Shown here one piece after another: positions 6,551-61,835 of a stretch of 64,000 nucleotides of DNA. A program made the translations under genes and the position numbers. The stretch is taken from positions 39,696,706 through 39,760,705 of the forward strand of contig NC_079223.1 in NCBI RefSeq assembly GCF_029633865.1, given 5' to 3'. How positions within the stretch are numbered: position 1 is the first letter of the stretch; each line of letters opens with the position of its first letter. The stretch comes from Lampris incognitus. Taxonomy: Eukaryota; Chordata; Actinopteri; Lampriformes; Lampridae. The notes beneath the pieces were generated by a model. It was not told the DNA's origin. It saw only the letters and a list, made by a program, of their open reading frames with translations, and made no database searches.

Positions 6551-9500
6551 ATGTCAGCCACCATCGGAAGACTGTTGAAGACCTCTGTAAGTGCGAACAA
6601 AACGTTATCGTGGAAAGTTTTGCAGTGGACGCGTATTGCTGTTGTTTTGAAATAGTGTTGATTTTGGCCACCGGGGTTACGTATGCCCACCCGTCTGTGA
6701 GCCGTGACAGAGGTCGACGAACGGCGCAAACGCGGTTGATAATAGGGTCGAGTAATATCTCCGCGGGATGCGTGTTGTGAGGTTCGTTTGCGTGTCTTAA
6801 GGCCAGCTGGATTTACGCACCGGATTTGAATTTAGTATTCCGCAGTTCATTTCGGTTGATTAAATAATCTATTTGTTTTTCGTGAAAATTGAGTAATAGT
6901 TGGTCTGTACCCCGATTCATACTCTTGCTCAGATGGTGGCGGTATTACATCAGAAAGTTGTTAGAATAAATCACAATTCCCCCCCCTGCGAGTTCGTGGC
7001 TCGCCTCAAGAGGGCGACATTTTTCGAGAGTTTTTATGACGTTTAATCGATTATGAAGGTTATTCGTGTGATTGACTACGGATGTTTATTTGGCCCATTG
7101 GTCTTTTTTTCCATATCTTGCAGTATAAAAGTCAAAGAAGAGTTTATCTGTACTGTCGAGAGAAAATCACACCAACCACAGCAAAACTAATGGCGCTAAA
7201 GAAAACGCCACAACCAGACTAACAAGAATAGGAAAATCGTCTCTAGTCCTTCATATTTTCATTTTTTCAGTTAAGGGCCCTTTATCTTGAAAAGCCTGCT
7301 TTAACACGTTGAAGTCCTGCAGTTTGCAGCCCCCGTTTCAAGTCGTCCTTCGACGTTCTTCTGATCCATGTGGCCCGTGTGTGAGGCTGAATGGGTTCAG
7401 CCCTCAAAAACTAACTGTTGCAGTGAAATAGCCTAATATACTTAAGCACACTATTGATGTCGATTTTCAATGTTTACTTTAAAATGAGTTTATAATCAAA
7501 TTAAAGCAGTCTGTGTTTAGTCCAGTGTGTGACCTTTTTTAAGTTAGATTCTAAATGACATTTAGGACCAATTTTACTTGGCAGAAAAGAAGAAAAAAAT
7601 GAACCAGATAAAGTCAATGCCGCCCTCTCACATAGAATTTTAAAGTTGCCCCAACTCACTTTTTAATTGTGGGTGTTTGAGTTTCAACCTATGTTCTATG
7701 TACCTGTGTATGTGTTACTCCATAGGCAGCCATTTAGACTTTAAATTGCCTCTATGTGAAGCCTTTCTTTAATGAATAAATGCCATTCAGATGGCATCTC
7801 TTAGCTTCTACCTTGAGGGTGAAATGGCAAATTGTTAAGTGACCTTACTGGAACCTGCCACTGACCTGAATGATCACACATTATCATCATTTGAATAAAT
7901 ATGTGGATTGATAACTCCCATTGTCTAGGCCAAGGTTGCAGCAGGAGGACTGAGAGTTGCAGCATCCTGTCCACATGGCGGCTCTGTGAATAGTACTGCA
8001 AGAATACTCTCCTGTCCCACACTTCAGAGAGCCTTATTCTCAACCAGTATGTATGATGTCAAAATCAAAAACTAAATTCATATTATTCTCAGGAGTTCTG
8101 TTTATGCTTTTTTTGTGAGATTTTTTTCCTAGGAGCCCCCACCACCTCTCGAACAGTGGTATCTGTAAAGTCTTCTGGGTCTGACTCCAGGCGAATGTAC
8201 AGAGATAATCATAACTCTGGTGTGCATTAGACAGACTATGGGAGGTTTGAACTAGGCTGTCTTTTCCTGTTTGGGCGACATTTTGATTTTTTTTTTATCG
8301 AAGAAGTAAGGAAAAGGTTTACTGGTTTCAGTGCAAAATGCTTTATTTCTACTACAGCATGAGAAACCAACTCAAAAGAAGGAGGTTGAGTCAGTTTACT
8401 TAAAAGTGTAACATACTGAGAAGCTTAGCGGTCTATTCTGTTGCCTGCCAACATGGGGATCGCCGGTTCGAAGCTCTGTGTTAGTATGTCCCTACAGACA
8501 TACTAATTGGCTTTGTCTGCAGGTGGGAAGCCGGATGTGGGTATGTGTTGTGGTCGCTGCACTAGTGCCTCCTCTGGTCAGTCAGGGCACCTGTTCAGGG
8601 GGGTGGGGGAACTGGGGGGACTAGCCTGATCCTCCCACGTGCTATGTCCCCCTGGTGAAACTCTTCACTGTCAGGTGAAAAGAAGCGGCTGGCGACTCTA
8701 CATGTATCGGAGGAGGCATGTGGTAGTCTTCAGCCCTCCCAGGATCGGCAGAGGGGGTGGAGCAGCGACCGGGATGGCTCGGAAGTGTGGGGTAATTGGC
8801 CAGATACAGTTAGGGAGAAAAAAAAAAGGGGGGGGGTTATAAAAAACAAAATAAAATATAAAACTAAGGATCTGAGCCTTGTGTGGGTGCTTTTCTCACA
8901 CTGAATACTGGCATCTTGTTCCTCTCTTACTTGAATTGACTACTGTTACCAGAACCAAAGTACAGTGCATGGGCTACCTATTGGTTATATGTATCAGTGT
9001 AAGATATTTCACACATATGTCTTGGCAATAAGCCACTATTAAATATGTTCTTCTTAACTCTTGTCAGACACTGTCAGATTTGCCCCTGCTGTCACTCAGC
9101 ATGCGCCTGCTTTCAAAGCCACGGCTGTCCACGATGGGGAGTTCAAGGAGCTGAGTCTAAATGACTTTAAGGGCAAATACCTCGTTCTTTTCTTCTATCC
9201 ACTGGATTTGTGAGTATTGAGGCCTCATAGTGAAATTAGCAAAATGCGGTGACCTGCAGTGAAAGTTATACTAGCTTTTCTTGCACTCTGCATGCTTTAA
9301 TTTGACCGACTTTGTACTTTTACAGCACCTTTGTGTGCCCAACAGAGATCATCTCATTCAGCGACAAGGCCAGTGAGTTCCATGACATTAACTGTGAGGT
9401 GGTGGGAGTGTCTGTTGACTCTCACTTCACCCACCTGGCTTGGATTAACACACCGCGCAAGGTATGTGTTCTCACCTAATCGATGGATAACGGACATGCC

Positions 9501-27536: not shown

Positions 27537-27694
27537 TGTAGCGAATTCGGGGGGACAACGCAACCACAGGAACTGCCGCGGCCGGGAAGCGAACCCGTAT
27601 CGCCCGCACCGCAGGAGATATCGCTAACCGCTCGACTAAAGGGTCAAACTCGCGAGCCAGCGGCCAGCGTGTCTTCCTATCCATGCACGTTACA
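27537..27694 (-). repeat. LTR-like single copy with tRNA-like core
   Basis: A 158-bp unit bounded by TGTAAC... and ...GCTACA on the minus strand. Its middle has GACCCTTTAG, CGAGCGGTTAGCGAT and a GGGTTCG B-box-like segment. The first two are shared with the terminal repeats of the miniature element at 44708-45080. No clear target duplication. It looks like a solo terminal repeat of a related family; a tRNA-derived SINE is the alternative. Confidence 0.5.
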
Positions 27695-30746: not shown

Positions 30747-36557
<5,811 letters not shown>

Positions 36558-40958: not shown

Positions 40959-43609
40959 CAGAGACAGAGAGACAGAGAGAAGGGGGGGTGACTCTAACCT
41001 CAAATGCCCCACATGATTTGATAGGATATATATAGATGTTGGTCAGAGTGTTAGCCTCCCCATGGTTTCTTGCATCTTCATCTTCCTCGCTGCCTCCACA
41101 TGCACTCCATGATGGTACTACAGGATTATGTCTCTCATCTACCTGGTCAGTTGTACGGTTAGTGACTTTAATGGGAGGATCTTGGTTGAAGTTTTGGGTT
41201 TGATTCAGTTTCTGCATTCTGTCTTGGTTCACTTTCACTGGTTTCTCCACAAAGCAATCAACAACAAAGCTCAGGAATTTTTGACAGTCTTCAAAGGTTG
41301 ACATATAGCCAAAGGACACCCGCACAGATCCCGTTGGTTGGCCATCCACCAGGTCTATGCTGTCTCCACACACATGGCCAGCCTCAAAGAGAAAAGGAAA
41401 CATTACCGTCTCAGCGAAGTAGCAATATTTCTTATTTCAGCTCTACCATGCTTTTCTTCGTCCTTGTCGTCTCACCTGTAGATTTCTCTTAACCTGTTGA
41501 TTGGTCATACCAAGGAAGAACTGGCAGGCCCCGGTGTTGCAGAAGCATCCCGTGCGCACATGAATATCATAAAGACTAGCGAGTTTATCCACCTGAGGGG
41601 AATATGATAATCAAGTTGTTGAATTATGCACAAGCACGGCACAAGTATGCAGTAATTATGGCTGAAACCGAAACAAAGCCTGTTCCCCAAGTGCACCTGA
41701 GAGTATCCAATCATTTGTCCATGACAGTCCATCAGGTTGAAGTTAAGGATTGCGCCTTGTGTGTTTGGACTCTCAAACTGGCCTTCGGTGTAGATCTGAG
41801 CCACTGGCCGCCCGTTGCCATGGCAAAGACTTGACAGCACCGTGTAAGTGTAGCGTGCTAAGCCAAATGTGTGCAGCTGGATGTTGTCCATTCCCCCTGA
41901 AGCCAAAGAGGGGATAAAGAAAGGATTGTTCATGTATCCTTGAAGCTGAAAATCATGAAACTCCAACAATAATTTGACAAGTTCCTTAGTTTCACTGCAA
42001 GCAGTCTTCGAGCAGACTACCTGTGATCTTGTACAGAGCATCAAAACTGTGATTAAGGGCGATGATGTCCAAGAATGATATGGTTCCATCTTCAAATCTT
42101 TATTAGGAGAGAGGTAGATGTAATATTAGAGAGCAACCCGGCAGCCATGACTACAGTGTTTTTATCACTGACATCCCTGAAATTTGATACCAAGAATATT
42201 TCAGACACACATATAAATGGACTGAATAATATTTCACCTGTCAGAAATATTTGCTGTTTGCACGTAATAATCCTCTCCTGCAAGATATGCTGCTGCTGTA
42301 CCGCCACCAAAATAAGCCTTCTTTAATATGGCTGCCGTGTCGTTGCGGATCAGAAGGGCGCCTAGACCAGTAGGGAAACCAAACATCTTGTAGAAGGAGA
42401 TGGGAATAAAATCAGCAGGGCACTCCTGTAGGTCTAAAGGGGAGCAGCTGACAAGAGAGGCAGCATCGAGTAGCACAAACCAGCGGCCCGGGTGGTCACA
42501 GGCCGGGTAGAGCCGTCTTGCCTGGATGCCTTTCACATGGCTTAGGGGATACTTTCTGCCAGAGAAATTGCTCTGCGCCGGATAACAGAAGAGGTGTGGT
42601 GTCTGGCAACCACGACCTCTCCCTGAAGCCCCTTCCTTGGCTGTGTTTTCCACTTCATGCGGTGACACTGGGAGGAGAGCTACACCCTGCTCAGAGGTCA
42701 GCCCTCTGATGCCAATCACTGACGTATGGTTGTCAGTGAGGTAGCTGAAATGACTCCCGGCCTGGCCTGCAGTCCGGGACCTCCACGGAAAGCTCAGAGC
42801 AACTAATTTGAGAGCCTCGGTACAACCAGAAACGAAAATTACGGAGTATTCCTCAGGGGTGGTGTTGAAATGTTGCAATACCCTGCAAGAAAATGACTTT
42901 ATTACTCTACTTGCTTAACCCTGGCAAACGGCCATACACAGATACCCACAATGGCAGAAAACAACAACAGACTTTTTTTTCAGCCGAAAGGAAACGTGCG
43001 TTACCTGTATCTGACACGCTCCACAGTGTCATGTGTCAGTCTGCTGCTGGGGCTACGGCTGTGGGGGTTACCTATTGGTAAAGGTCAAGTCAAGACAATT
43101 TTATTTGTATAGCCCAATATCACAAATTACACATTTGCCTCAAGGGGCTTTACACAGCAACACAACATCCTGTCGTTATATCCTCGCATCACAACACAGA
43201 GGTTTAAAAAAACACATGTAATAAACAAAAAAGAAAGATACAATACAGTTAATACAGGTTAGGTTGACCCTTATGAGTGACCCCCATTTCTCACCGTATA
43301 CATTTCTTGAGATGTCCTGGCAGAAATCTCTCACCAGTGACTCTGGGTACAGGGTTGCTGCTGCATGGTCCAGATACGTTATTCCTGTTTATATTTTCAT
43401 TTTACCAGAAATAAAAATAAAAACGAGCATTTGTATTGCATAACAGCGCACGATATTTGTGTGACACCGCTTTGCCATCACTTCTCACAGGATTTACCTT
43501 TCAGCCGTGTGAACTCCTGAGCTATCAGGTCCCGCAGGTCTCTGGAATAACCGTAGCGGCTCCAGACTTTCTTGAAACTCTCAAAGGTGCAAAGTGTTGG
43601 GAAATCCAT
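38152..43609 (-). CDS. mocos: molybdenum cofactor sulfurase
   Basis: PLP-dependent enzyme that moves sulfur from cysteine to the molybdenum cofactor, activating xanthine dehydrogenase and aldehyde oxidase. Exons from the start: 43498-43609, 43295-43384, 43005-43071, 42238-42882, 42021-42097, 41697-41896, 41476-41592, 40999-41382, 40623-40785, 40422-40509, 39883-40007, 38920-39016, 38617-38764, 38408-38512, 38152-38259, in frame to 841 codons (human 888). The aminotransferase-V domain fills residues 1 to about 480, with the PLP lysine in PISFYKMFGFPTG and the cysteine loop RTGCFCNTGACQ. A linker follows, then the MOSC N-terminal barrel (NIYIYPIKSCGAFE, GLLYDRGWMVVNGNGV) and the MOSC domain with GRCERCQMIGVDQGTG. 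The acceptor at 38512 was preferred over 38505 because only it keeps frame. Confidence 0.97.
39330..39668 (-). repeat. SINE family A in a mocos intron
   Basis: Minus-strand copy between mocos exons 38920-39016 and 39883-40007, with (CCAT)n at left, a short CA run and a clear tRNA-like head at right (GGTGGCGTAGTGG). No convincing target duplication. Confidence 0.82.
40815..40985. repeat. GA/GACA simple repeat filling mocos intron 8
   Basis: About 170 bp of (GA)n and (GACA)n, which is CT/TGTC in the sense of mocos. The intron is only 213 bp (40786-40998), so nearly all of it is pyrimidine-rich repeat. Confidence 0.9.
43083..43200 (+). repeat. dispersed repeat, second copy of the 30382 type
   Basis: GTCAAGTCAAGACAATTTTATTTGTATAGCCCAATATCAC followed by TTTGCCTCAAGGGGCTTTACA; this resembles the 3' end of a fish LINE. 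It starts 11 bp upstream of the mocos exon 3 acceptor, in intron 2. Confidence 0.6.
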
Positions 43610-44707
43610 GGCAGTGCCTCGCCGCGATCTCTGCAGGGGACGCCGTTTTTATTCGCAGGGCCCTTCACCGCTACAGTGGTTTACAGAGACTGACTTAGTC
43701 GATGACAAGGTCCAAGTCCATCCAAACTAACGTCCCCACCAAGTCCCCGCTACACATCACGAGTTCGACTCGCAAGCATTTTCCTCGCATTTATCCGATC
43801 CGCCGGCCAAGAAACAGGAAGGCGTGCTGTGCACGGGTCGTTGAGGAAAACGGCAGGCATGACTTTGCCGAAACAAGTTAAAGGTTGAGAAAGTGGAATT
43901 GCGTAGGGCGTGCGGTGTCGAATTTGGTATCCCCTCCACCTAATATGCATCCCATAGTTCCGCGGCGTCGCGGGAACGCGCATACGTCCTCTTAAAGCGG
44001 GCCATGCCATGCCCGCGTTTCCGTTTCACGCAAGGAAATGAAAAATGGCTTCATTTGGACTTTTTTTTTTTTACCTCGTTATTTTTTAGCTCGTCATCTT
44101 GATTTTACACGCAACGTAGCATACCGAAAGCATAAAGCTCTTCCAGTCACGGTTTGTATGCTTTTGGTACTTTGTCTGTAAAACCAGAAAAAAAAGATAA
44201 TCAAAAAAAATAGTGAAAAAATTACGTTTTCCCATATGGCCGCGGGTTCGAGTTTATATAGGAAACATATTCTATTTGGGATACGAAATTTGGCATCACG
44301 TACAGGCCTTGATTGAGACATGGGATGATGAAAAATAACACCACAGAGCTGCAGGAGTTATAACCGACGTCCGTTGTGTAACTAACGGCAAGCAGAAGAA
44401 ATTGACGTTGTTGCATGGGCTCAGAAACAGCTCACAAACGAGGATGGATAAATTGCACTTTCAAATGTAAACCATTATGTTGATTGCATCTTCCACATTG
44501 CAATCAGCTGAAGTAATTTGCAGATGATTACTTTGTGCTCGGCCGCTATCAGCGTTTACTTTACCTCTTACTGTCATCTGTGGATTCTGTCTGCCGAATG
44601 GACAACTGATTACAACAGAATAAGCTATCTGTTAGCTTATACCGTCTTCTCTTTATCCCCTGTCTCGGCGATAGTGAGGAGACTAGCTTTGACCTTGACG
44701 TTGAAAT
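43610..44707. other. mocos upstream region
   Basis: CpG-rich from 43610 to about 44030 (GGCGTCGCGGGAACGCG near 43965), which probably includes the mocos promoter. Beyond that it is AT-rich with no gene or repeat that I recognise. Confidence 0.5.
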
Positions 44708-45080
44708 TGTAAACTACTAATAAGACACGTTAGCCCCTAGCTAACGGATCTGACCCTTTAGCCGAGCGGTTAGTGATGTCGCCTTGTGGTGCAATACACC
44801 TCGTATCGAATCCCGCACCGGGCAAGAAAATAACCCGTTACATTGGTGGCAGCGGTGGGATCCGGAAGTGTGCAGATCCTCAGAAGCCTCTTCGGAGCGC
44901 GGGAATAACAAAGCGCGAGGGCGCGCTTCCGGGGAGGGCGACGACTGTAAACTACGAATAAGACACGTTAGCCCCTAACTAACGGGTCTGACCCTTTAGC
45001 CGAGCGGTTAGCGATGTCGCCCTGTGGTGCAGTACACCTCGTATCGAATCCCGCACCGGGCAAGAAAATAACCGGTTACA
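44708..45080. mobile_element. miniature LTR-type element (TRIM-like) with tRNA-like terminal repeats
   Basis: Two direct repeats of identical length, 135 bp (44708-44842 and 44946-45080), each TGTAAACTAC...GTTACA, about 5% apart, surround a 103-bp interior. The interior starts TTGGTGGCAGCGGTGGGAT, in the place of a primer-binding site, and ends purine-rich (GGGGAGGGCGACGAC), in the place of a polypurine tract. No coding capacity. Each repeat contains a tRNA-like stretch with an A-box-like TAGCCGAGCGGTTAG and a B-box-like GTATCGAATCCC. I see no target duplication. A tandem pair of SINE-like units is the alternative. Confidence 0.62.
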
Positions 45081-45279
45081 CTAACGTTAGCTGTAGCCTA
45101 GCAACGGCATGAACGCCGTCAGCTAGCGCGTGTGGCAGCGTCACGCGGCGTACACGCGTGCACACGCTTGGTTTAAGGGTTTAAATATCACAGCACCAGT
45201 CTTCATGATAAGAGTCACGCTCAGTAAACCCGTTGATATCTGTTTTAACACATTTTTAAATTTCAGATGGTCAAAAAAA

Positions 45280-50090: not shown

Positions 50091-61835
<11,745 letters not shown>

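Follow-up and report, generated by a model that had tools for sequence, protein, structure and literature searches.

Helenus elements are TRIMs that carry tRNA-derived sequence in their LTRs, and they have been described from fungi, animals and one plant (Kojima 2024, PMC10886601). They were named there as the tRNA counterpart of plant Cassandra. Animal Helenus families make 4-bp target duplications and have been assigned to Gypsy on the similarity of their primer sites, with tRNA-His, -Leu or -Lys as the primer in vertebrates (PMC10886601). The fish hosts listed for them are Ostariophysi, sturgeon, paddlefish and coelacanth, and the zebrafish family LTR-11_DR comprises 5575 LTRs and 2618 interiors and forms tandem arrays (PMC10886601). 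Pol III transcription of Helenus is put forward without experimental validation (PMC10886601). The terms Helenus and retrotransposon also occur together in a butterfly genome paper and in a meeting report that cites PMC10886601. LTR-11_DR is named nowhere else in the literature we searched, and among the listings returned by wider literature searches we recognised no other tRNA-bearing TRIM.

We analysed a 64,000-bp stretch of the Lampris incognitus genome (the window) and conclude with high confidence that positions 44708-45080 hold a TRIM-type non-autonomous LTR retrotransposon of the Helenus type whose LTRs contain a tRNA-derived module (Table 1). This kind of element is already described and already reported from fish; it is not a new kind. 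The preliminary description knew of no such family, a gap that Helenus fills (PMC10886601), and its suggestion that a tRNA counterpart in fish would parallel Cassandra agrees with how Helenus, known from fish, has been presented. Like Helenus, the element is a non-coding TRIM of a few hundred base pairs with A and B boxes in its LTRs and a primer-binding site matching a tRNA 3' end; like the animal families, its own family has 4-bp duplications, solo LTRs, tandem arrays and thousands of copies. Its likeness to Helenus families such as LTR-11_DR is judged from their published description rather than from consensus letters. According to excerpts of PMC7215508, Cassandra is likewise a TRIM with a gene bearing a Pol III promoter in its LTRs and with tandem LTR-interior arrays. 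Unlike Cassandra, whose LTRs contain 5S rRNA sequence, the window element has a tRNA-like module. No Rfam match of any kind reached the gathering score in the window, and no 5S match appeared at E <= 10 in 44600-45200.

Table 1. Features of the element, and of a related LTR, by position in the window.
Feature	Position	Strand	Details
5' LTR, family A	44708..44842	+	135 bp, TG...CA
A-box-like motif, 5' LTR	44759..44769	+	TAGCCGAGCGG, LTR position 52
B-box-like motif, 5' LTR	44803..44813	+	GTATCGAATCC, 2 mismatches to GGTTCGANTCC
Interior, non-coding	44843..44945	+	103 bp
Primer-binding site	44844..44861	+	18/18 to tRNA-Leu-AAG 3' end + CCA
Purine-rich stretch before 3' LTR	44931..44945	+	imperfect PPT, 12/15 purines
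3' LTR, family A	44946..45080	+	135 bp
A-box-like motif, 3' LTR	44997..45007	+	TAGCCGAGCGG
B-box-like motif, 3' LTR	45041..45051	+	GTATCGAATCC
Solo LTR, related family (B)	27537..27694	-	158 bp, TG...CA, flanks ATAT/CTAT (3/4)

The window copy is 373 bp long, and the architecture first proposed for it, two 135-bp TG...CA repeats about 5% apart around a 103-bp interior, proved exact to the base. Its LTRs differ at 7 of 135 positions (94.8% identity; five transitions and two transversions), and both start with TGTAAAC and finish with GTTACA. GC content is 54%, and the observed/expected CpG ratio is 1.23, compared with 0.52 across the whole window. No stop-to-stop open reading frame of at least 90 amino acids overlaps the element. 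Predicted RNA folding was not clearly better than that of shuffled sequences (z of -0.47 for the interior, -1.28 for the 5' LTR and -0.34 for the tRNA-like part). Exact pieces of the element had no match in viral_contigs or genome_contigs, and a similarity search of phages and plasmids with the element also found none. When the literature was searched by sequence letters, element pieces went unmatched, and only the tRNA-Leu 3' end gave matches.

Other features of the window include two long open minus-strand Tc1-type transposase frames, at 32713-33804 and 57043-58095 (363 and 350 amino acids from stop to stop), with the Pfam domains HTH_Tnp_Tc3_2 and DDE_3. A frame with a class-V aminotransferase domain, which we take to be perhaps molybdenum cofactor sulfurase, lies on the minus strand at 42234-42914, about 1.8 kb from the element. 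A reverse transcriptase and a KH domain were found as well.

We searched the 1.48-Gb assembly (537 contigs) with the 373-bp unit and scored the best 40 of 1,972 first-look candidates, all of which were at least 95% identical over at least 371 bases. Apart from the window copy, 39 were fetched with 200-bp flanks; dropping L045, which shares its flanks with L044, left an independent set of 38. The unit aligned end to end in 36 of the 39, and the remaining three lacked only the final 1-2 bases. All 39 keep the 135/103/135 layout within a few bases (LTRs of 133-139, interiors of 102-104), but, having been chosen as best matches, they do not show how complete the copies of the genome are in general. 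Raw divergence between the two LTRs of a copy has a median of 5.2% (range 2.2-8.9%) in the 38.

The number of copies in the genome is large. Allowing up to two mismatches, a 27-base LTR-end pattern occurs at 9,417 places and the junction of LTR end and primer site at 2,699, with no place found for either reversed-pattern control. Assuming two LTR ends per full copy, these counts suggest that there are approximately 2,700 full copies and some 4,000 solo LTRs, an estimate that is rough because the two patterns differ. To sample copies by position, we took the first 30 exact LTR ends along contig C1; three were the second LTR of an element already counted and were removed, which left 27 distinct loci. 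Thirteen are LTR-interior-LTR, 12 are solo LTRs (one of them, L084, with a truncated start), one is LTR-interior and one is LTR-interior-LTR-interior-LTR. Such tandem arrays occur in both of the families described here (L048:4452-5043; L078:1501-2210; L106, 1163-1756 on its reverse strand); the first sign of the L048 array was that a primer site immediately follows the 3' LTR of L017. The many copies of constant layout and the solo repeats that the preliminary description expected of a TRIM family are both present. Among the copies examined, the full ones being best matches, we saw neither differing end points nor a restriction to A-tailed, SINE-like monomers, the two patterns it took to speak against an LTR-type element.

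Within the window only the two LTRs of the element match the complete 135-bp unit; a relative on the minus strand, at 27606-27676, matches 71 bp of it. A profile built from the two LTRs alone found this one further place in the window (E 8e-12). The match lies within a solo LTR of a second family, here called family B, which has the A box TAGTCGAGCGG and the B box GGTTCGCTTCC 43 nt apart; a primer site is not present directly after it. With this 158-bp LTR as the query, we scored the best 40 of 1,147 candidates (41 places) and analysed 30 loci, L049-L078. A script called 10 of these paired, the partner LTR lying at 109-122 bp, and the other 20 solo; two calls are doubtful, namely L051 (paired, with a fragment as partner) and L074 (solo, followed by letters like the end of a family B interior). 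L078 belongs to an array. The A box is found in 27 of the 30 LTRs and the B box in 29 at up to two mismatches, with 26 pairs at a spacing of 43. At L062:1320-1657, a solo family B LTR with an ATAC duplication is followed by family A interior letters, and here a family B LTR seems to have inserted into the interior of a family A copy.

A primer-like start to the interior had been proposed, and the site holds up well. It begins one base past the 5' LTR and, against 17 human tRNAs, matches Leu-AAG at every position, with the runner-up at 15. It is the single such site in the window at up to three mismatches (0.05 expected), and it is exact in 30 of the 38 family A copies. The family B primer site, TGGTGTCAGAAGTGGGAT, which 8 of the 10 paired copies contain in exact form, presumably corresponds to tRNA-Leu-CAA, whose end it matches at 18 of 18 positions. 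A purine-rich interior end had also been proposed. The stretch before the 3' LTR is mostly purine, but the tract is imperfect: in family A, GGGGAGGG is followed by seven mixed bases, CGACGAC, before the LTR. In most of the 10 paired family B copies, a purine run such as GGAGGGGGG precedes TAG.

A primer site and a purine-rich end would also be present if the element had arisen by internal deletion from a single autonomous LTR element, with LTRs still common to both, and some TRIMs do arise in this way (PMC10886601). We consider this origin improbable. The LTR is just 135 bp long and contains the tRNA module, and Kojima argues that long sharing of LTRs with a helper is unlikely for the class (PMC10886601).

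Target-site duplications of 4-6 bp had been predicted, and those of 4 bp were found, if not at the window copy itself, where the flanks AAAT and CTAA disagree. An exact 4-bp duplication flanks 20 of the 38 independent family A copies; 30 of the 38 agree at three or more of the four bases, and eight at two or fewer. Over all 39 copies there are 21 exact 4-bp duplications, compared with a mean of 2.07 and a maximum of 7 in 2000 shuffled pairings, and no exact 5-bp or 6-bp match. In the positional sample, exact duplications flank 6 of the 13 full copies and 5 of the 12 solo LTRs; these are raw counts without a shuffle comparison, and the ends of truncated LTRs were extrapolated. Family B has exact 4-bp duplications at 19 of 30 loci (7 of 10 paired and 12 of 20 solo; shuffled mean 5.3, maximum 13). 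The middle bases are TA in 19 of 19 exact family B duplications and in 11 of 20 from family A, where CTAG occurs five times.

These features bear on whether the locus could instead be a chance tandem of a tRNA-derived SINE or of two SINE monomers. The A and B boxes at a spacing of 43-44 are indeed shared with tRNA-derived SINEs, and seven other SINE-like heads with boxes 44 nt apart lie in the window, at 1744, 14846, 17568, 19983, 29491, 39657 and 54328. However, the LTR-interior-LTR layout, the TG...CA ends, the primer-binding site and the 4-bp duplications of the genomic copies examined are those of an LTR-type rather than a target-primed element. The window copy has no A-rich tail, and solo LTRs occur with the same ends and with duplications. 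Nor are the copies one duplicated locus; their flanks differ, except for L044 and L045. On the layout, the duplications and the solo LTRs, we reject a SINE identity and regard it as extremely improbable.

What sets this TRIM apart is the module within each LTR. Boxes resembling the A and B boxes had been noted at tRNA spacing in each repeat, and we recovered both in both repeats, 44 nt apart. Such a pair arose in 1 of 20,000 simulated 135-mers of equal composition. Compared with the same 17 human tRNAs, the module of the window LTRs has modest similarity (best local scores of 16 and 18); shuffled scores average near 10, and none of 300 shuffles reached the observed values. An assignment to a single best tRNA was dropped as unstable, the choice being His for family A and Gly for family B. 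ARAGORN and Rfam found no tRNA at the element, a negative that says little because they also missed the tRNA-SINE-like heads of the window. On the same searches, and with the same weakness, we rejected identity with a tRNA gene or a 5S gene. The A-box match is present in all 76 LTRs of the 38 family A copies, and the exact form GTATCGAATCC was counted 57 times across them. The 30-base block that contains the A box is identical between families A and B at 28 of 30 positions; both of the nearest 10-base steps upstream have 6 of 10, and the step before those has 9 of 10. At the level of motifs, the LTRs thus appear to contain a Pol III promoter.

TTTT is the canonical Pol III stop, and on the plus strand it is absent from all 38 family A copies and all 30 family B LTRs; any Pol III transcript would therefore lack an ordinary stop within the element. 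The first TTTT at the window copy lies 162 bp downstream. For the window element the absence is unremarkable, as 67% of simulated sequences of like composition also lack TTTT. The lack of TTTT in the copies examined is one of the observations that fit a Helenus-like element in which the tRNA module is a relic and transcription is now by Pol II; two departures from the canonical B box in family A, and the failure of ARAGORN and Rfam to recognise a tRNA, fit this reading too. We consider it unlikely, though it deserves more weight than the other alternatives. Against it stand the retention of the A box in all 76 family A LTRs examined, the conservation of the surrounding block between the families and the near-canonical B box of family B. 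In addition, AATAAA, ATTAAA and TATAAA are all absent from the window element, though it has two AATAAG and three AATAAC.

A Helenus-type element with a Pol III promoter suggests the following cycle. In tRNA genes Pol III initiates 12-18 nt before the A box, and by this rule transcription would start slightly upstream of the 5' LTR's A box. The packaged transcript would be a short RNA that reads through the primer-binding site and the interior into the 3' LTR. At the observed site, tRNA-Leu would then prime minus-strand DNA. Reverse transcriptase and integrase would be supplied in trans by an autonomous LTR element, probably Gypsy, following PMC10886601. Integration would generate the 4-bp duplication observed on sister copies, and recombination between LTRs would leave the solo LTRs that we find.

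Insertions lie closer together than expected. Among 89 insertions derived from the first 100 exact LTR-end places on contig C1, 12 gaps are 3 kb or shorter, compared with about 2 after random shifts of up to 25-300 kb; one gap, of 156 bp, may be a single element with a deleted interior. None of 2000 shifts reached 12 at any of the four ranges. The excess over this density-preserving control is about five- to six-fold. Of 68 loci with wide flanks, five were set aside because they were second LTRs or lay next to another locus. At 20 of the 63 that were left, a further piece of family A or B, in some cases a fragment, lies no more than about 1.5 kb away. The piece at L051 is the same one that was counted as a partner LTR among the family B loci. 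Neighbours are oriented the same way in 14 cases, head-to-head in 10 and tail-to-tail in 8. Upstream targeting by the Pol III machinery was rejected on the lack of upstream bias in these orientations.

Ty1 and Ty3 target Pol III genes, and self-seeding by copies of an element would be a version of this. New copies might land preferentially within a few kb of resident copies, with Pol III factors on a resident LTR attracting the integration complex, but we regard this as distinctly doubtful. Tolerant neighbourhoods explain the clustering equally well, and permissive surroundings or local duplication are the likelier account.

Within the literature searched, Helenus is a retrotransposon class that rests on one 2024 survey, and the raw sequence and genome-wide copies reported here support it. 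Two families with different primer sites co-exist in this one genome. If Pol III drives Helenus-type copies, they would add up to a large collection of Pol III sites and offer a ready system in which to learn how LTR elements without genes borrow a helper.
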